32,370 bases of DNA from Halobacteriales archaeon QS_5_70_17. GTDB taxonomy: Archaea > Halobacteriota > Halobacteria > Halobacteriales > Haloarculaceae. The notes under the pieces were generated by a model, which saw only the letters and a program-made list of their open reading frames with translations, had not been told where the DNA came from and did no database searches. Shown here piece after piece: positions 5,996 through 17,402 of the stretch. Position 1 is the first letter of the stretch; every line of letters begins with the position of its first letter. The stretch lies in contig PXRR01000057.1 of the NCBI GenBank assembly GCA_003021975.1, positions 5,077 through 37,446 on the forward strand, in the 5' to 3' direction. Position numbers and translations under genes: made by a program.

Positions 5996-7315
5996 TCAGT
6001 CCCGGTCGGACCCGTCCGAGTCGGCGTCGACCGTCAGTCGCTCCTTCCCGGCGACGGCGTCGGCCTCCTCGAAGTCTCCCCCGCCGAGCAGGCCGCGGGC
6101 GGCGCGTTTCCCCCACTCGACGGCCGGCTGGGTGAACGTCTCGACGCCCGCGAGTTCGCCCGCGAGCACGCAGGCGGCCTCCAGCCCGTAGAGCAGCTCC
6201 CCGACGCCGGCGGCGTCGAGGCGGTCGACCTCGATCCGGACGCTGGGCCGGTCGGCGGCTGCGAGACTCGCCTCCGTGGCCTCGAACTCGGCGTCGAGCA
6301 GGTCCCCGAGGTCGGTACCGCCGAGATACGACAGCGCTTCGACGTCGGTCTGAGGGATCGGACAGCCCGGACGTTCGCGCGCGCGGACGAAGGTTACCAG
6401 TCCGTCGTGGCGGCCGGCCCGGTAGAGCTGGAGCTGGGAGTGCTGGTCGGTAGCGCCGAGCGCGCGCACCGGCGTCTGCCCGAGGCCGTCCTTGCCGAGG
6501 CTCTCGGCCCACAGCTGGGCGAACCACTCGGCGAACGACTCCAGTCGCTCCTCGTAGGGCATCATCACGTTCGTCGCCGCGCCGCGGACCTCCAGGGCGT
6601 GGGCGACCGCGCCGTAGGCGTAGGCGGGAGAGTCGAACAGCGAGGGGGCGAGGGCCTCCCGGCCGGCCCGTCCGCCCTCGAGGACGGCCTCGACGTCGAC
6701 GCCGTGGATCGCCGCGGGGACCAGTCCGACCGACGAGAGCACCGAGAACCGGCCGGGGACTCCCTCGGGGACGTCCAGCGCGGGCAGCCCCTGATCGTCG
6801 GCCAGGTCCCGCAGCGGGCCGGACTCGCCGGTCGTGACGACGGTGCGCTGGGTCCAGTCGACGCCGGCTTCCTCGAAGGCCTCGCGGACGACCAGGAAGT
6901 TCGCCAGCGTCTCGGCGGTCGTCCCCGACCGGGAGACGACGTGGACGGCGGTCTCGGCGAGCGGCAGGTCCGCGAGCAGGCGATTGGTGTGGGCCGGATC
7001 GACGTTGTCGAGGACGCCGTGGAACCGCTCGGGGACCAGCGCCTCAGTGAGCGTCGCCGCGCCGAGCGCGCTGCCGCCGATGCCGACCGTGAGGACGGCC
7101 TCGCTGTCCTCGACGGGGGTGACCGCCTCCCGGATCGCGCCGGGATCGGCCTCCGCGGGGAGCCCGAGCGCCGCGTAGCCGAACTCCCGGTCGTCGATCC
7201 CGCGCTCGATCCGGTCGTGGGCCCGCCCCACCCGGTCGTCGAGCGATCCCAGGGAGTTCCGATCGACGCCCGGCTGTGCAACCGCCGCGAGCGCGTTGCC
7301 GATGTCCACCCGCAT
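5996..7315 (-). CDS. pgi: glucose-6-phosphate isomerase
   Basis: A 439-residue cytosolic enzyme interconverting glucose-6-phosphate and fructose-6-phosphate. Two SIS-type sugar-phosphate-binding parts are visible: GIGGSALGAATLTEAL (78-93) and SRSGTTAETLANF (128-140). The segment WAESLGKDG carries the catalytic Glu271 and GATDQHSQLQL carries His292; a C-terminal EWGKRAARG supplies the lysine expected for phosphate binding. Length is like short bacterial-type Pgi, not the cupin-type archaeal enzyme. The ATG at 7315 is supported by a TATA-like box 27 bases upstream. Its product, fructose-6-phosphate, is the substrate of GlmS encoded at 23808, though the genes are unlinked. Confidence 0.95.
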   Translation of the reverse strand: MRVDIGNALAAVAQPGVDRNSLGSLDDRVGRAHDRIERGIDDREFGYAALGLPAEADPGAIREAVTPVEDSEAVLTVGIGGSALGAATLTEALVPERFHGVLDNVDPAHTNRLLADLPLAETAVHVVSRSGTTAETLANFLVVREAFEEAGVDWTQRTVVTTGESGPLRDLADDQGLPALDVPEGVPGRFSVLSSVGLVPAAIHGVDVEAVLEGGRAGREALAPSLFDSPAYAYGAVAHALEVRGAATNVMMPYEERLESFAEWFAQLWAESLGKDGLGQTPVRALGATDQHSQLQLYRAGRHDGLVTFVRARERPGCPIPQTDVEALSYLGGTDLGDLLDAEFEATEASLAAADRPSVRIEVDRLDAAGVGELLYGLEAACVLAGELAGVETFTQPAVEWGKRAARGLLGGGDFEEADAVAGKERLTVDADSDGSDRD

Positions 7316-7337
7316 AGTCGGGGGGTGCGCCTCCTCC

Positions 7338-7346
7338 CGTATAGCT
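7338..7346 (-). promoter_or_regulatory. TATA-like box for pgi
   Basis: AGCTATACG on the minus strand is centred 27 bases before the pgi ATG. With GGTTAATC at 7381-7388 (27 bases before the ATG at 7412) it forms a compact divergent promoter pair. Confidence 0.45.
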
Positions 7347-7411
7347 GAACGGATCCGTCGCGGCCGTCTCCAACCGGCACGGTTAATCGCCGCCGCCCGC
7401 TAGTGCCGCCG

Positions 7412-7918
7412 ATGAGCGATGAGCCGTACTCGGGGCTGCTGGGCGCGTTCCCCTACGCGTTCCGGTCGAGCGAGTCGCGGCTGTTCCGCCTGTACGCGGT
7501 CGTCGGGGGGCTGCTCGCGCTCGCGGTGGCGCTGCTGTTCGGCCTCGCGCTCGTGGCGGTGCTAGGCCAGACGGCGACGGCCGAGGGCGGCACCTTCACG
7601 TTCTCGCGGTCGCTGTACGTCCTCGTCGGACTGTTCGCCGTCGCGCCGCTGGTCGCCCCGGTACTGTTCGTCGCCCGACACCACCGCCGGAATGGCGCCG
7701 ACCGGGGGTTCGACGCCCGGATGGCGACGGCCGGCTTCCTGTTCGTCCTCGCGCTCTATCTCGCGGCGGTTGTCTCTACGCCCGCCGAGCAACAGCAGAC
7801 GACCGCAGGGGCCCTGGCACCGGTCGCCGACACGCTGTACGCGCTGCCCCGGCCGCTCGGTCCGGCGATCCCCGCGGCGGTCGCCGTCGGGATGTACCTG
7901 CTTGCCCGGCGCGGATAG
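7412..7918 (+). CDS. haloarchaeal membrane protein of unknown function
   Basis: A 168-residue membrane protein. After a short soluble N-terminus (SDEPYSGLLGAFPYAFRSSE) it has about four hydrophobic helices, two adjacent in the first half, then one around the VLALYLAAVVS stretch and one at the C-terminus ending YLLARRG. No family with known function is recognised. The ATG at 7412 is preferred over a GTG at 7403 because a TATA-like GGTTAATC lies 27 bases before it. It is divergent from pgi and followed after about 50 bases by the DUF5812-like gene, which may be co-expressed. Confidence 0.82.
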   Translation: MSDEPYSGLLGAFPYAFRSSESRLFRLYAVVGGLLALAVALLFGLALVAVLGQTATAEGGTFTFSRSLYVLVGLFAVAPLVAPVLFVARHHRRNGADRGFDARMATAGFLFVLALYLAAVVSTPAEQQQTTAGALAPVADTLYALPRPLGPAIPAAVAVGMYLLARRG

Positions 7919-7966
7919 CGCGGGGGAACGATACGGGCAAGGGTAACGGCGGCCTACCGAACGGGT

Positions 7967-8434
7967 ATGCCCGAAAAGGAGGGAACGTTCGTCGTCACCC
8001 ACGCCGACGGCGACAGCGCAGTGCTGAAAGACGCCGACGACGGACAGGTACACACGCTCGTCGAGAACCCGGGCGTCGACCGGGGAGATGTCGTGGAGGC
8101 GACGCTCTCGCCGGAACCGCCCCTGGAGGTAGCCTGGCGCGTCGCGGGCATCGAGGACCACCGGTCGCTGTCGATCGAGCGGAGCGAGGAACCCCCGACG
8201 GAACAGGAGCGATCGCTGGCCGACGAGAGTTCGGTGGGGGACGTCGCGCGGGTCGACCGCGCCGGGACCGGCGAACTCCACGTCCTCCCGGTCGACCCCG
8301 AGGAGACGGATGCCGCCGTCCGGGACGTCCTCGAGGACGAGGCGACGCTGACCCGCGCGGCCCGGATGGCGGGCGTCGGGCGGGTCGAGGTGCGGTCGGA
8401 ACCGGGTGTGGTCAGCGTCCGTTACCTCCCGTAA
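7967..8434 (+). CDS. haloarchaeal conserved protein, DUF5812-like
   Basis: A 155-residue very acidic soluble protein. The first half (EGTFVVTHADGDSAVLKD to VAWRVAGIED) looks like a small beta-rich domain. The second half contains VARVDRAGTGELHVLPV and a helical segment (TDAAVRDVLEDEATL), ending in beta strands. I recognise it from memory as the haloarchaeal family called DUF5812, whose function is unknown. It ends about 25 bases from the stop of the convergent terpene-synthase-like gene. Confidence 0.82.
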   Translation: MPEKEGTFVVTHADGDSAVLKDADDGQVHTLVENPGVDRGDVVEATLSPEPPLEVAWRVAGIEDHRSLSIERSEEPPTEQERSLADESSVGDVARVDRAGTGELHVLPVDPEETDAAVRDVLEDEATLTRAARMAGVGRVEVRSEPGVVSVRYLP

Positions 8435-8458: not shown

Positions 8459-9520
8459 CTATTTCAGGTCACGGCTCGCCAGGTGGTACTCCATGACCGT
8501 CTCCATGCCGGCAATAAACGCGTCGGTGTCGACGGTGTCGATCCCGTAGTCCTGGCCGCTGACCTCGTCGTATCGCTCCTCCCACTCGGAGAGAAACGCG
8601 TCCTCGACGCCGCGGTCCTTGATCCGCTGGGCGACCCGATCGAGGTCGGCGTTGGCGGGGTCGAGTTCGTCGGGCGCGACGATCCCTTCCTGGAGGGCCT
8701 GGACGATGACGCCGGCGGAGTAGTCGCCCTCGGTGAGTTCCCGCTCCCAGGTAGTGAGCCAATTGCCGATCCGGGCCATCTTCTGGAGGTCCCAAGTGAG
8801 GTCCCGGAGGCCGCTGAGTTCGTCCAGCGAGAACCCGGGCGAGAACATCAGGTCGATGTCCGTGTAGGGGAACAGGACCATGTTGTGCGCGCCGTAGGCG
8901 CGCGCGCCCGTCGCGTTGGCCATGTGCTTGTTGTCGCTGACGACGCGGGTGTACTCCATCGCGTTGAACCCCTGCCGGAGGTCGTACGAGAAGATGCTCG
9001 CGAACTCGCCGTAGCAGGGCGCAGCCTGAAGTCGCCCGTCGATCTCCTCCCAGAGTTCGCGGACGAACTCGAGGAGCTCCCCGTCGACGCCCTCCCGTTC
9101 GGGATCGACCGTCCGGGGCGCGCGAGCCACCCGGCGGGCTTCCTCGAAGGTGGCAGTGTCGTTGCGGGTCTCGATGAGGTCGTCAAGGGTGGTGATGAAC
9201 ACTGTAAATAGCGTCTTAATCTCCTTCACGTCGGCCAATTCGGCCGCGGGAACGCAGGAAAGCGTGAACGAGTCGAAGAGCTTGTGGATCCACCGCCAGA
9301 GGAACCGATCGCGATCGTTGTCAACGACGCGCTCGTACTTCTCCACGTACTCGATGACTGTTTTGGGGAGCTCTACCGTCTGAATCTCCGAAATCAGGTC
9401 TGCTGGTTCGTGTTCGACCGACAGCGGCTGGTTTGGAGTCGTTTCGACCAGTTCGTGTGCCATGCCAGTTGAAGCAGAGGCCTGCGCCTCTGTAAATGTT
9501 TCCATTATACTATCATACAT
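8459..9520 (-). CDS. class I terpene-synthase-like protein
   Basis: A 353-residue all-helical soluble protein with the active-site pattern of class I terpene synthases. The Asp-rich motif is DDLIE at 113-117, after a helix ending FTVFITTL. The second metal site is NWLTTWERE at 253-261, fitting N-x3-(S/T)-x3-E with Asn253, Thr257 and Glu261. Arg207 sits exactly 46 residues before Asn253, where the pyrophosphate-sensing arginine is expected, and Gly210 follows. The 140-residue spacing between motifs and the context MARIGNWLTTWERELTEGD are typical of bacterial cyclases. Asp at the second triad position is Trp here, but that residue is not a metal ligand. The likely substrate is a prenyl diphosphate; the product is unknown. 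Starts at 9520, 9505 or 9463 are possible. It is divergent from the Bat-type regulator. Confidence 0.78.
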   Translation of the reverse strand: MYDSIMETFTEAQASASTGMAHELVETTPNQPLSVEHEPADLISEIQTVELPKTVIEYVEKYERVVDNDRDRFLWRWIHKLFDSFTLSCVPAAELADVKEIKTLFTVFITTLDDLIETRNDTATFEEARRVARAPRTVDPEREGVDGELLEFVRELWEEIDGRLQAAPCYGEFASIFSYDLRQGFNAMEYTRVVSDNKHMANATGARAYGAHNMVLFPYTDIDLMFSPGFSLDELSGLRDLTWDLQKMARIGNWLTTWERELTEGDYSAGVIVQALQEGIVAPDELDPANADLDRVAQRIKDRGVEDAFLSEWEERYDEVSGQDYGIDTVDTDAFIAGMETVMEYHLASRDLK

Positions 9521-9644
9521 TGGATTAATTCACGTTATTGAGAACAAAACAACTATGTTATCATGAATTTCACGCCGGAAAGATATCCAAACGGCCAGTC
9601 GAGTGGCGAACGACTTATTCATGTGTAGTTACAGAGATTAGGCG
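9521..9644. promoter_or_regulatory. AT-rich divergent promoter region between terpene-synthase-like gene and Bat-type regulator
   Basis: These 124 bases are markedly AT-rich compared with everything around them. For the regulator, CTTATTC (9614-9620) is centred 28 bases before the ATG at 9645. For the synthase-like gene, minus-strand AT-rich elements near 9524-9547 could serve as a TATA box, but none gives an unambiguous match to one start. A regulator bound here could control both genes. Confidence 0.55.
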
Positions 9645-12536
9645 ATGATTTCGAGTCGGGCCCGAAACGATACCGCGGCGTCCCCGGTGCGTATTGTTCA
9701 CGTAACTGGAACGGACGCCACGGACCTAACCACGAGCGACCTCGAGGTGACGTCGGCCGTCTCAACGACTGAGGCCATCGATCGGCTGGAAGACGGCGCG
9801 CGCGTGGACTGTGTAGTGAGTGATTACGACCTCCCGTCCTCGACGGGGGCGGAGTTCGTCGACCGTTTGCGCGCCCACGGTCACGACGTTCCCGCCATCG
9901 TCCGGGTCCCCAACGAGGCGGCGACCAGTGAGGCGTTGGCCGCGGGCGCTACCGACGTCGTCGACGTCGACGCTCCCCCAGGCGTCCTCAACCAGCGGAT
10001 CCAGAACACCGTCGGTCCGGACCCCGCCGCCCGCACGCGCGAACACTACCGGGAGGCCGCCGCCGACCTGCGACAGGTCGCTCTCGAGGGGGCGGGTCTA
10101 CCGCGGCTGTTCGAGGAGACTACCGCACTGATCGAGGCGGCGCTCGGTATCGACCGCTGTGTACTCTTCGAACACCAGGCCGGGGACCTCGTCGTGCGTG
10201 CCGAGATCGGGGGCGCCGGCGACATCGAGGCGCTCTCCGGGGACGGATCGCTCGCGCGCAACGCCCTGACCGCCAGTAAAGCAGTCTGTGCCGACGGCGA
10301 CGGCGGGACGCTCTCGGGGGGGATCGCCCACTCGCTCCGCGTCGGAGACGAACCGTGGGGCGTTCTGGCCGCCTACGCGACCGACGACCGGCAGTTCGGC
10401 GCCGACGAGCGACGGCTGCTCCGGACCGTCGCCGGCATCCTCGAACCGTCGATCGGCCGCGAGCACCGCCGCCAGGAACTCGAACGCTACGAGACGATCC
10501 TCTCGACGATCGACGACGGGATCTACTCGCTGGACCCCAACTTCCGCATCGAGTGGGTCAACGACGCGATCACCGACCAGACGGGCTACGACCGATCGGA
10601 ACTGCTCGGACAGCACTCCTCGCTGCTGGCGGACGACGACGTCTTCGACCTCGTCGAACAGCTATCGAGCCAGATGATCGAGGGCGACGAGAACGTCGCG
10701 AGCCTCGACACGAAACTCGCGACGAAAGGCGGCGGCCGCCTCCCAATCGAGACCCGCTTCTCGATGATGCCCCGCCAGGACGGGGGCCACGGGTTCGTCG
10801 GGGTGGTCCGGGACATCACCGATCGAAAGCGCTACGAGCGGACGCTCACCGCCCTCCATGATTCCACCCGGGACCTGCTGCACGCCGAGAACAAGGCGGA
10901 GGTCAGCGACGAGATCGCCGAGACGGCCATCGACGTACTCGACCTGCAGGGCGTCGCGGTGTACCTGTTCGACGGCGACGACGGACGGCTCAAACCCGCC
11001 GCGTGGTCCGAGGAGATGGCCGACCTTACCGGCGAACTCCCGGCGGTCGGGCCGTCGGACCCCGCTCTGACCTGGCGAGCGTTCGTCGCCGGCGAGGTGA
11101 TATCGCTGGAGGACATCCGGGAAAGCGAGCACGTCTATCGCGAGGAGACGCCGTTCCGGTCGGGGCTGTACATCCCGCTCGGGGAACACGGCGTCCTCAT
11201 GGCCGAGTCGACCGACGTCGCCGCCTTCGACGACCAGACGACGGAACTGGTCGACCTCCTGGCGGCCAGCGCCGAGGCCGCGCTGGACCGCGTCGAGCGC
11301 GAGGAGGAACTCCGCGAGCGCGACCGGGAACTCCGCGAGCAGAACGACAAGCTCACCGGACTGAAACAGACGAACGACATCATCCGCTCGATCGACGCGG
11401 CGCTGGTGCAAGCCGACACCCGCGAGGAAATCGAGACCGCGGTCTGCGAGAAACTCGTCACCGCCGACGAGTTCGCGTTCGCCTGGACGGGGACCCTCGA
11501 GAACGGCGGCGAAACCCTGGAGCCGAGCGCGTGGGCGGGCGACGAGCGCGGGTACCTCGACAGCGTCGACCTGACGCCGGAGGAGCACCACGCGGAGCCA
11601 GCGGCCCGCGCTGCGGCCACCCGCGAGCACACCGTCGTCTCGGAGATCGCCGACGGCTTCCAGGCGGAGCCGTGGCGCCGGACCGCCCTCTCGAAGGACT
11701 ACCTCTCGGCGTTCGCCGTCCCGCTGATCCACGGTGACGTCCTCTACGGCGTGTTGACCGTCTACGCGGACGAGCAGGACGCCTTCGACGAGATGACCCG
11801 CTCGGTGCTCGACGAGCTCGGCGAGACGATCGCCAACGCGATCAACAACGTCGAAACCCGGCGGACGATGCTCGCGGACAAGGTCGCCGAGATCGAACTC
11901 CACATCGACGACGAGGAGATGCTGTTGCGGACGCTCGCGACCGCCGCCGACTGCCGGATCGAGGTCGACGACATCGTCCACGAGTCCGAGGGCACCTCGC
12001 TGGTGTTCTGTTCTGCCGCCGGTGCCGACCCCGAGGACCTCCGGGACCTCGAATCGGAGTTCGTCGGCGTCGAGCACGTCGGAGTCATCGCCGAGGACGA
12101 GGAGGCCACCCGCTTCGAGATGCGCCTCTCGGCGAACACGGTCGCGACGAAACTCGCCGACAACGGCGCCGTCACGCGGTCGATCACCGTCGACGACAGC
12201 GGCACGCGCGTCGTCGTCGAACTCCCCCAGGACGCCGACGTCCGGGAGTTCGTCGAGGCCGTCCAGGCCAGCTACCCGGCGACGGACCTCGTCGCCCGGC
12301 GCAACCGCTCGTCGTCGGCCCAGACCCGCCGGGACGTCCGGAGCGGTATCTCCGAGCGGCTCACCGACCGCCAGCACGAGGTGCTCCGGACAGCGTTCGC
12401 CAGCGGCTTCTTCGAGTGGCCCCGCGACCGGACCGGGCAGGAGGTCGCCGACTCGCTGGACATCTCCCAGCCGACGTTCAACAAGCACCTCCGGGCCGCC
12501 GAGCGCAAGCTCTTCTCGATGCTGCTGGAGGGGTGA
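9645..12536 (+). CDS. multi-sensor Bat-type (bacterio-opsin activator-like) transcriptional regulator
   Basis: A 963-residue cytosolic regulator. Domains in order: a receiver-like domain (about 15-125) with Asp60 in CVVSDYDLP but lacking the usual acidic pair and C-terminal Lys; a GAF domain (about 134-270); a PAS domain (about 279-402, ending VVRDITDRKRYE); a second GAF (402-549); a coiled-coil linker (549-585, RERDRELREQNDKL); a third GAF (575-742); the Bat-associated domain (745-882); and a C-terminal HTH-10 DNA-binding domain (900-962) with LTDRQHEVLRTAFASGFFEW. The family includes Bat, which senses light and oxygen to activate bacterio-opsin and carotenoid genes. Being divergent from the terpene-synthase-like gene suggests it controls that gene. 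No kinase domain is present. Confidence 0.93.
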   Translation: MISSRARNDTAASPVRIVHVTGTDATDLTTSDLEVTSAVSTTEAIDRLEDGARVDCVVSDYDLPSSTGAEFVDRLRAHGHDVPAIVRVPNEAATSEALAAGATDVVDVDAPPGVLNQRIQNTVGPDPAARTREHYREAAADLRQVALEGAGLPRLFEETTALIEAALGIDRCVLFEHQAGDLVVRAEIGGAGDIEALSGDGSLARNALTASKAVCADGDGGTLSGGIAHSLRVGDEPWGVLAAYATDDRQFGADERRLLRTVAGILEPSIGREHRRQELERYETILSTIDDGIYSLDPNFRIEWVNDAITDQTGYDRSELLGQHSSLLADDDVFDLVEQLSSQMIEGDENVASLDTKLATKGGGRLPIETRFSMMPRQDGGHGFVGVVRDITDRKRYERTLTALHDSTRDLLHAENKAEVSDEIAETAIDVLDLQGVAVYLFDGDDGRLKPAAWSEEMADLTGELPAVGPSDPALTWRAFVAGEVISLEDIRESEHVYREETPFRSGLYIPLGEHGVLMAESTDVAAFDDQTTELVDLLAASAEAALDRVEREEELRERDRELREQNDKLTGLKQTNDIIRSIDAALVQADTREEIETAVCEKLVTADEFAFAWTGTLENGGETLEPSAWAGDERGYLDSVDLTPEEHHAEPAARAAATREHTVVSEIADGFQAEPWRRTALSKDYLSAFAVPLIHGDVLYGVLTVYADEQDAFDEMTRSVLDELGETIANAINNVETRRTMLADKVAEIELHIDDEEMLLRTLATAADCRIEVDDIVHESEGTSLVFCSAAGADPEDLRDLESEFVGVEHVGVIAEDEEATRFEMRLSANTVATKLADNGAVTRSITVDDSGTRVVVELPQDADVREFVEAVQASYPATDLVARRNRSSSAQTRRDVRSGISERLTDRQHEVLRTAFASGFFEWPRDRTGQEVADSLDISQPTFNKHLRAAERKLFSMLLEG

Positions 12537-12624: not shown

Positions 12625-12897
12625 ATGAGCACCGACGACGTTCGAGGCCGGAGCGTGTCCGGGAACCGTTCACTCGCCGGCGCCATCGCGGCCGCGGTCG
12701 CGGAGACGAAAGGCGTCGCTCCCGAGTCACTGCCGCCACTGTACGAATCGATCGATCCGGACGCGCTCGAGCGGCTGTTCGCTCCGTGTAACGACGGTAC
12801 GTCCCGCGCCCGGGGGCGGGCGGTGTTCCCGGTCGCGGGCTGCGAGGTCACCGTCCGCTACGACGGTGCGGTGTCCGTCCGGGAACGCGGGGAGTGA
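12625..12897 (+). CDS. HalOD1-type output domain protein
   Basis: A 90-residue protein with a helical first half (AIAAAVAETKG, then LPPLYESIDPDALERLF) and a beta hairpin second half (GRAVFPVAGCEVTVRYDGAVSVRE). This order is typical of the haloarchaeal HalOD1 domain, proposed as a signalling output module. The ATG at 12625 follows the end of the Bat-type regulator by 88 bases on the same strand, so it may be co-expressed with it. The function of stand-alone HalOD1 proteins is unknown. Confidence 0.85.
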   Translation: MSTDDVRGRSVSGNRSLAGAIAAAVAETKGVAPESLPPLYESIDPDALERLFAPCNDGTSRARGRAVFPVAGCEVTVRYDGAVSVRERGE

Positions 12898-15923: not shown

Positions 15924-16565
15924 TCAAAACGAGTCCAGGGCGGACTGCTCGGCCGCAGCGAGGACGTCCCGGCTCGTCTGCCAACTCTCGCGGGCGCACT
16001 CCGGGAGGCGCCCGTGCTCGTCGACGTACCGCCGCAGGAACGCCCGGGTCGTCGGATCGCTGGGGTAGCCCGACCCGACGTCGCCGTACTCGGCGGCGAT
16101 GTCGGCGACCGCGGCGTCGCGTTCCACCTTGGCGACGACGCTCGCGGCGGCCACCAGCGGGTGGGACTCGTCGGCGCGGTGTTCGGCGCGGACGGTCGCG
16201 CCGTCGGGACAGGCCCCGGCGTCGGTGACTCGGCGAGCGAACCGGTCGGCGTCGACGTCGCCGGCGTCGGCCAGCCCTCGGCCGGCGGCGTCGGCGGCCG
16301 CGACGGCCTCCGCGTGGGCGACCACCGTCAGCGAGTTCATGTCGGTCGCGGGGTCGTCGATGCGGTCGGATCCGACCCGCGCAACGCCGACTGCGACCGC
16401 CGGGTGGTCGCGCACCGCTGCGGCCAGCGTCTCCCGGCGGTCGGGCGAGAGCCGCTTCGAGTCGTCGACTCCCGCCGGAAGCGCCCCCTCGGGACCGGCC
16501 ACACAGGCAGCGACCATCGGTCCCAGCACCGGCCCCTTGCCCGCCTCGTCGACGCCGAACTCCAT
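15924..16565 (-). CDS. rnhB: ribonuclease HII
   Basis: A 213-residue enzyme cutting the RNA strand of RNA-DNA hybrids. The N-terminal FGVDEAGKGPVLGPMV supplies the first two acidic residues (Asp5, Glu6 in DEAGKG). The segment AEHRADESHPLVAAASVVAKV contains a third acidic residue (in the DESHPLVAAAS motif), and a further Asp lies in the region SGYPSDPTTRAFL. Length is normal for archaeal RNase HII. The start at 16565 is chosen because the family begins directly before GVDEAGKG and a minus-strand TATA-like box (16589-16595) lies 27 bases upstream; the longer upstream reading has no conserved character. Divergent from the second Bat-type regulator. Confidence 0.95.
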   Translation of the reverse strand: MEFGVDEAGKGPVLGPMVAACVAGPEGALPAGVDDSKRLSPDRRETLAAAVRDHPAVAVGVARVGSDRIDDPATDMNSLTVVAHAEAVAAADAAGRGLADAGDVDADRFARRVTDAGACPDGATVRAEHRADESHPLVAAASVVAKVERDAAVADIAAEYGDVGSGYPSDPTTRAFLRRYVDEHGRLPECARESWQTSRDVLAAAEQSALDSF

Positions 16566-16588
16566 GAGACTCTCACGGGAACCGGCGG

Positions 16589-16595
16589 GTAAATC
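16589..16595 (-). promoter_or_regulatory. TATA-like box for rnhB
   Basis: GATTTAC on the minus strand is centred 27 bases before the ATG at 16565, consistent with a leaderless rnhB transcript. Confidence 0.45.
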
Positions 16596-16697
16596 GCTTG
16601 CCCTCGGGGCGGTTAAACAGCTAGCCGCCGTCTTCAACGGGTCAGGTGAAAGACAAGACGTTACGATCGCCGCCCCGCTCGGAGGCGATCGATTACC

Positions 16698-17402
16698 ATG
16701 AGTTCGGAATCTGCATCCCGGGGATCGACCCCCCGGACGGAGGGGAGTACAGCGCGCCACGAGGAGGGGTCAGTCACCGTCGCCGAACTGCGCGTTCCGG
16801 CGTCGGAGATCGCACTCGAGGAGGCCTTCCGGCGCGCGCCGTCGATGACGTTCCGCGCGGAGAAAGTCGCCGGGCGCCAGTCCGACCGCCCGTTCGCCCA
16901 CGGGTGGATCGGCGGCGACGCCGAGGCCACCGCGGCGGCGCTGGAAGCCGACCCGAGCGTGACACTGGAGTCGGTGCTCGTCCGCCGGGACGACGAACAG
17001 CTCTGCGAACTGGGGTTCAGCGATCCGGTCGCGCTGGTGGCGGACGCGGTCTACAACAGCGGCGGAACGATCCTCTCGGCGGAGGCCGCCGACGGGAACT
17101 GGCAGCTCTGTCTTCGGTTCTCGGACCGCTCGTCGCTGAGCGACCTGATGGGGCTGTTCGACCGGTTCGGCATCGACGCGAACCTCACGCAGGTGGCGAA
17201 CGGCGACGGGGCGAGCCGGCAGCGGCTGACGGAGAAACAGCGCGAGGCGCTCGCGGCCGCCCACGAGCGGGGCTACTTCGAGGTCCCGCGGCAGGCCTCC
17301 CTCGAGGAGGTCGCCACCGACCTCGGGATCTCTCACCAGGCGATGTCCGAGCGCCTCCGACGCGGACAGAACGCACTCCTGCACTCCGAGATCGTCGACT
17401 GA
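16698..17402 (+). CDS. Bat-family HTH-10 transcriptional regulator, short form
   Basis: A 234-residue regulator made only of the Bat-associated N-terminal domain (about 25-165, SVTVAELRVPASEIALEEAF onward) and a C-terminal HTH-10 DNA-binding domain (about 172-230), with LTEKQREALAAAHERGYFEV and a recognition-helix region GISHQAMSERLRRGQ. It lacks the receiver, PAS and GAF sensors of the long regulator at 9645, so any signal input must be through the N-terminal domain or a partner. Targets are unknown. It is divergent from rnhB, with 132 bases between starts. Confidence 0.92.
   Translation: MSSESASRGSTPRTEGSTARHEEGSVTVAELRVPASEIALEEAFRRAPSMTFRAEKVAGRQSDRPFAHGWIGGDAEATAAALEADPSVTLESVLVRRDDEQLCELGFSDPVALVADAVYNSGGTILSAEAADGNWQLCLRFSDRSSLSDLMGLFDRFGIDANLTQVANGDGASRQRLTEKQREALAAAHERGYFEVPRQASLEEVATDLGISHQAMSERLRRGQNALLHSEIVD

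Follow-up and report, generated by a model that had tools for sequence, protein, structure and literature searches.

The 32,370-nucleotide stretch of DNA analyzed here (hereafter the window; Halobacteriales archaeon QS_5_70_17, contig PXRR01000057.1) carries an open reading frame (ORF) whose product is probably a class I terpene synthase, catalytically competent and belonging to a distinct archaeal subfamily. We put the probability of this reading at roughly 0.75, based on the predicted fold, the sequence motifs, their conservation, and the gene neighborhood. An earlier note on this DNA had proposed a class I terpene synthase-like enzyme, and the predicted fold, the metal motifs, and their conservation supported that proposal.

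Predicted fold and metal-binding motifs

Fold comparison, which the earlier note had named as a check, showed that the predicted model of the window protein has the all-alpha class I terpenoid synthase fold, that is, the isoprenoid/terpene synthase type, and many of the structural matches listed are cyclases by title. The minus-strand translation contains DDLIE (113-117), Arg207, Gly210, and NWLTTWERE (253-261) where the earlier note had placed them, and its spacings were also correct: Asn253 follows Asp113 by 140 residues, and Arg207 precedes Asn253 by 46. Conservation was counted over 89 relatives that remained after filtering at 90% identity. Asp113 was retained in 84, Asp114 in 88, and Glu or Asp at position 117 in 84, and the triad was also kept (Asn253 in 88, Thr257 in 87 with Ser in 2, and Glu261 in 88). 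Given this conservation, the motif pattern is, as judged from the alignment, beyond what chance would give.

Two arginines are of interest for pyrophosphate binding; positions are numbered below relative to the triad Asn (N). At N-3, corresponding to Arg250, Arg was present in 84 of 88 family members but in none of 12 bacterial controls, all of them Streptomyces clavuligerus plasmid synthases. In plant enzymes, an Arg at the equivalent place touches the pyrophosphate. An hhalign comparison with the same 12 controls aligned Arg207 on the bacterial pyrophosphate-sensor Arg with a score of 40.1. The null was built from column shuffles (n = 60), 59 of which scored 17.4 or less; one outscored the real result over 6 aligned columns and was treated as an artefact. 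Because of this alignment, and because 10 of the 12 controls have Arg at N-46, the spacing argument of the earlier note holds for the window protein, though not for its family.

Sequence searches and family distribution

PF19086 (Terpene_syn_C_2) matched residues 105-279 of the window protein weakly, with an E-value of 0.0037 and 17.5 bits, and 23 of 37 family members matched it at E ≤ 1. Two paralogues on another contig of the same genome scored 32.6 and 28.3 bits, above the cut-off of 23.7 bits; they lie about 10 kb apart, at 6313-7365 and 16159-17139 of locus L035 (G000 contig C22). Searches of the Protein Data Bank sequences with phmmer and a profile gave no terpene synthase, and such matches were revealed by fold comparison alone. 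A viral structure library gave no match at E ≤ 0.001.

Sampling 392 genomes of the order turned up relatives in 121. A profile search of the phylum, also over 392 sampled genomes, gave matches in 39; of these, 18 lie beyond the order, where several matches are weak or fragmentary. With PF19086, the counts in 195 genomes of the order were 31 at E ≤ 0.001 and 23 above the cut-off. All six plasmid records with homologues name them hypothetical protein, one of these matches also touching the next gene.

Linkage to Bat-type regulators and HalOD1 proteins

The gene divergent from the synthase encodes a Bat-type regulator that matched BAT at 150.2 bits and HTH_10 at 72.4 bits, with GAF, PAS, and receiver domains also above cut-off. 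Within 4 kb of 88 synthase loci, Bat was present at 31, HalOD1 at 31, and both at 24, compared with 326, 77, and 0, respectively, of 4000 random placements. When Bat, HalOD1, kinase, and FilR1-type genes were taken together, 52 of the 88 loci had such a neighbor against 530 of the 4000 placements, and 36 loci had none of the four types. The 88-locus set excludes L085, a duplicate of L056, and many of its loci come from one genus. The random placements were drawn from 40 control stretches of 20 kb that we chose, mostly 100-300 kb from a synthase. Neighboring genes were called with a simple script; one of their clusters, cluster 0, contained both Bat regulators and kinases and was later divided. 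The first Bat and HalOD1 profiles came from synthase neighbors, and that HalOD1 profile was kept for all counts; Bat was recounted with a second profile, made from further Bats of the host genome, which had themselves been extracted using the first profile.

A maximum-likelihood tree of the 90%-identity set placed the window gene inside a group of 24 rows with support of 96/94, of which 22 were Bat-linked and 2 stood beside a kinase; HalOD1 lay within 4 kb in 17 of the 24. Three gene orders occurred in the Bat-linked rows (13 divergent, 7 Bat-HalOD1-synthase, and 2 synthase-Bat-HalOD1), and the linkage is therefore not one frozen arrangement. A Bat tree gave the same subgroups as the synthase tree. 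Elsewhere in the family, the neighbors include PAS kinases, FilR1-type helix-turn-helix (HTH) genes, and cytochrome P450s.

Proposed function and alternative explanations

In the proposed mechanism, Asp113, Asp114, and Glu117 together with Asn253, Thr257, and Glu261 would hold Mg2+ ions, which would bind and ionize a prenyl diphosphate taken from what the organism itself makes for lipids and carotenoids. The substrate would most likely be geranylgeranyl diphosphate (GGPP), perhaps farnesyl diphosphate; GGPP is our first guess because three polyprenyl-synthase matches and two of phytoene/squalene type occur in the genome. Arg250, in place of a conserved helix-G sensor Arg, may help to hold the pyrophosphate, and the carbocation would then close or rearrange to a hydrocarbon or an alcohol. 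The Bat-type PAS/GAF regulator may control expression of the synthase, with HalOD1 as a partner, such that the terpene would be made upon a redox, oxygen, light, or ligand cue. By analogy with LuxI/LuxR, the synthase and its regulator might even form a signal-and-receptor pair in which a terpenoid signal is read by the PAS/GAF domains, an idea that we consider doubtful. It draws on the exchange of neighboring sensors across the family, from Bat with HalOD1 to a PAS histidine kinase, a FilR1-type HTH gene or, upstream of three distant relatives from other orders, PAS-HisKA_2 kinases, which would fit a signal synthase travelling with its sensor, and partly on the listing of Bat-type HTH domains among putative archaeal LuxR solos in the available part of one source (PMC5413776).

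Several observations weigh against the assignment as a regulated terpene synthase. Among the residues named in the earlier note, the metal motifs proved conserved, but Arg207 and Gly210 did not: Gly210 was kept in 13 of 89 relatives, and over 88 family members N-46 was occupied by Trp in 19, Glu in 17, and Arg in 15. The RY pair that 10 of the 12 controls carry between N+87 and N+99 is absent from the window protein, whose sole RY lies at N+63. The probability of the hhalign comparison was only 50%. The profile search suggested in the earlier note did find a terpene synthase family, but the score fell below the curated Pfam cut-off (17.5 versus 23.7 bits), and NCBIfam gave the window protein no match or name, its family matches being at chance level only. 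As for the neighborhood, Bat was found at 9 of 64 loci outside the clade of the window gene, and the synthase-adjacent Bats do not form one exclusive clade, with other Bats unresolved beside them. Neither Bat nor HalOD1 is rare, since the genome holds 21 BAT-domain and 13 HalOD1 matches above cut-off, and its nearest P450 matches sit on other contigs. In the same-genus genome G256, a syntenic Bat (54% identical) and HalOD1 are retained, but no synthase is present; therefore, either the synthase can be dispensed with or this Bat has further functions. In that genome (locus L202), a gap of about 285 bp at about 7687-7970 occupies the synthase's place, the gene having been lost or never having been there. 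The G256 synteny and the number of Bats led us to reject the strict view that the purpose of Bat is to serve the synthase.

Other explanations of the protein were weighed against the same data. An active class I diphosphate lyase could release an acyclic product, such as an alcohol or alkene comparable to linalool or isoprene, without forming a ring; the cyclase titles of many structural matches speak against such a product, which we regard as possible but unlikely, although nothing found separates this reading from a cyclase. The abundance of signaling genes near the family would also suit a noncatalytic protein with a terpene synthase fold, serving these neighbors as sensor or partner. Such a role is improbable, however, because a protein that only binds would have no need of two metal motifs conserved almost without exception, and because broken or degenerate copies are few (L144, L036, L151, and seven match rows with a stop codon).

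Prenyltransferases and phytoene/squalene synthases have the same isoprenoid-synthase fold as terpene synthases, a point in favor of a divergent member of either group. Against this stand the single Asp-rich motif combined with the N-x3-T-x3-E triad and the presence of separate PF00348 and PF00494 genes in the genome. Neither PF00348 nor PF00494 was listed for the protein at E ≤ 10, with filters that drop most weak matches, and the 19 families to which the 37 members gave matches at E ≤ 1 included neither. We therefore consider a relative of these enzymes very improbable, and a terpene synthase remains the reading that we prefer.

Gene start and feature coordinates

The features discussed are collected in Table 1. 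Met20 is probably the true start of the synthase, as judged from sequence comparison and the model: the gene calls of L001, L002, and L059 give the same 181-bp gap to Bat as in the window, the codon context is conserved across the part covered by the alignment, and residues 1-31 of the model have a predicted local distance difference test score (pLDDT) below 50. In the nearest relative, L058, the frame is open further upstream and the script gave a gap of 87 bp, and for this reason Met20 is given as the probable start. The 181-bp region contains conserved blocks, and no Bat site was identified in it. The host assembly is incomplete, at 2.6 Mb and 73% completeness.

Table 1 Features of the window around the putative terpene synthase gene
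Feature	Position in window	Strand	Remarks
Class I terpene-synthase-like ORF	8459..9520	minus	353 aa; 334 aa if Met20 start at 9463
DDLIE, residues 113-117, Asp-rich metal motif	9170..9184	minus	C-terminal end of predicted helix 92-117
NWLTTWERE, residues 253-261, NSE-type triad Asn253/Thr257/Glu261	8738..8764	minus	within predicted helix 232-264
Arg250, 3 residues ahead of triad Asn	8771..8773	minus	proposed pyrophosphate ligand; putative role
Arg207, aligned with bacterial pyrophosphate-sensor Arg	8900..8902	minus	
Divergent intergenic region, synthase (Met20) to Bat-type regulator	9464..9644		181 bp
Bat-type regulator	9645..12536	plus	963 aa; receiver, GAF, PAS, BAT domain, HTH_10
Stand-alone HalOD1 (halobacterial output domain 1) protein	12625..12897	plus	90 aa

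Degenerate copies and related loci

A degenerate copy at L144 (5698-6480) lacks the Asp-rich motif and the triad residues. The second synthase copy at L036 (5604-6529; G384) consists of two overlapping frames and is apparently a frameshifted pseudogene, the copy at L151 is also in pieces, and seven homologue match rows contain an internal stop codon. Distant relatives in other orders (L145-L150) have DDSCD in five of six cases and DDCCD in L148, with N-x3-T-x3-E in all six. Pfam gives L145-L150 no terpene match, and an AlphaFold model for this group reached a pLDDT of 50.7, at which the fold was not confirmed. Among six other-order loci viewed, a PAS-HisKA_2 kinase lies directly upstream in L145, L148, and L150; L137 has a PAS kinase downstream, and L140 and L142 have neither arrangement.

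At L042, L045, and L046, a synthase lies near a P450 cluster gene and one or two small proteins, and these loci are candidate terpenoid pathways. The P450 domain was checked in the cluster member L102, and the small protein of L045 has no Pfam match. The second paralogue in L035 adjoins a KaiC-family cluster gene, a pairing that also occurs in L100 and L101 (KaiC domain checked in L101).

Comparison with known systems

In the available parts of the literature, one paper (PMC12797696) cites a preprint by Samusevich et al. (bioRxiv 10.1101/2024.01.29.577750) for terpenoid biosynthesis in archaea, and another (PMC13235557), also citing it, describes archaeal synthases characterized in yeast. A 2023 source (PMC10105419) states in its available part that halocin and bacterioruberin were the only products to which an archaeal biosynthetic cluster had been confidently tied. 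The accessible text of an antiSMASH survey counts 1990 archaeal "terpene" clusters, with the enzymes unspecified (PMC12144867), and two antiSMASH "terpene" clusters per genome are given in a partly available source for Halomicroarcula. The titles and abstracts listed by the literature searches, with most subscription journals and preprints outside coverage, contained nothing on haloarchaeal class I terpene synthases or on a link between a terpene synthase and Bat or HalOD1. As far as Samusevich et al. can be compared through citations, what appears new here is a synthase lineage whose putative pyrophosphate-site residues are its own and which is linked to Bat and HalOD1.

If the assignment is right, a large archaeal group credited with lipids, carotenoids, and retinal would also make terpenes with class I synthases. 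The lineage tends to escape standard annotation, having no NCBIfam name and only hypothetical proteins among the plasmid homologues, and, compared with the bacterial controls, it has different predicted pyrophosphate-binding residues. The linkage to a Bat-type sensor hints at regulated terpene chemistry or signaling in archaea and offers a testable handle on when and why the product would be made, whether as a light- or oxygen-controlled compound or as a terpenoid signal.

The window protein shares its fold and the DDxxD/E and N-x3-S/T-x3-E motifs with bacterial class I synthases of the PF19086 type (T-muurolol, hydropyrene, and epi-isozizaene synthases), at 6-17% identity in structural alignments among the matches listed. 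Its motif spacing of 140 compares with 138-143 in 7 of the 12 bacterial controls, the pattern being absent or elsewhere in the other 5. At the sensor position, the window protein has Arg207 and 10 of the 12 controls have Arg, whereas the archaeal family keeps it in 15 of 88 members only. The two groups differ further in the RY pair near N+93, seen in most of the bacterial controls and absent from the window protein, and in the Arg at N-3, seen in most of the archaeal family and in none of the controls. Identity to the alpha domains of plant class I enzymes (taxadiene, bornyl diphosphate, and 5-epi-aristolochene synthases) was 6-12%; the plant chains have 500-750 residues, whereas the window protein is modeled as a single alpha domain. 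Terpenoid biosynthesis in archaea is common ground with the synthases of Samusevich et al., known here through the citing papers. In Halobacterium salinarum, according to the available part of one source (PMC2253796), Bat is likewise encoded near an isoprenoid enzyme gene, in bop/bat/crtB1; there the enzyme is the phytoene synthase CrtB1, for retinal, whereas in the window it is a putative terpene synthase, with HalOD1 beside Bat.
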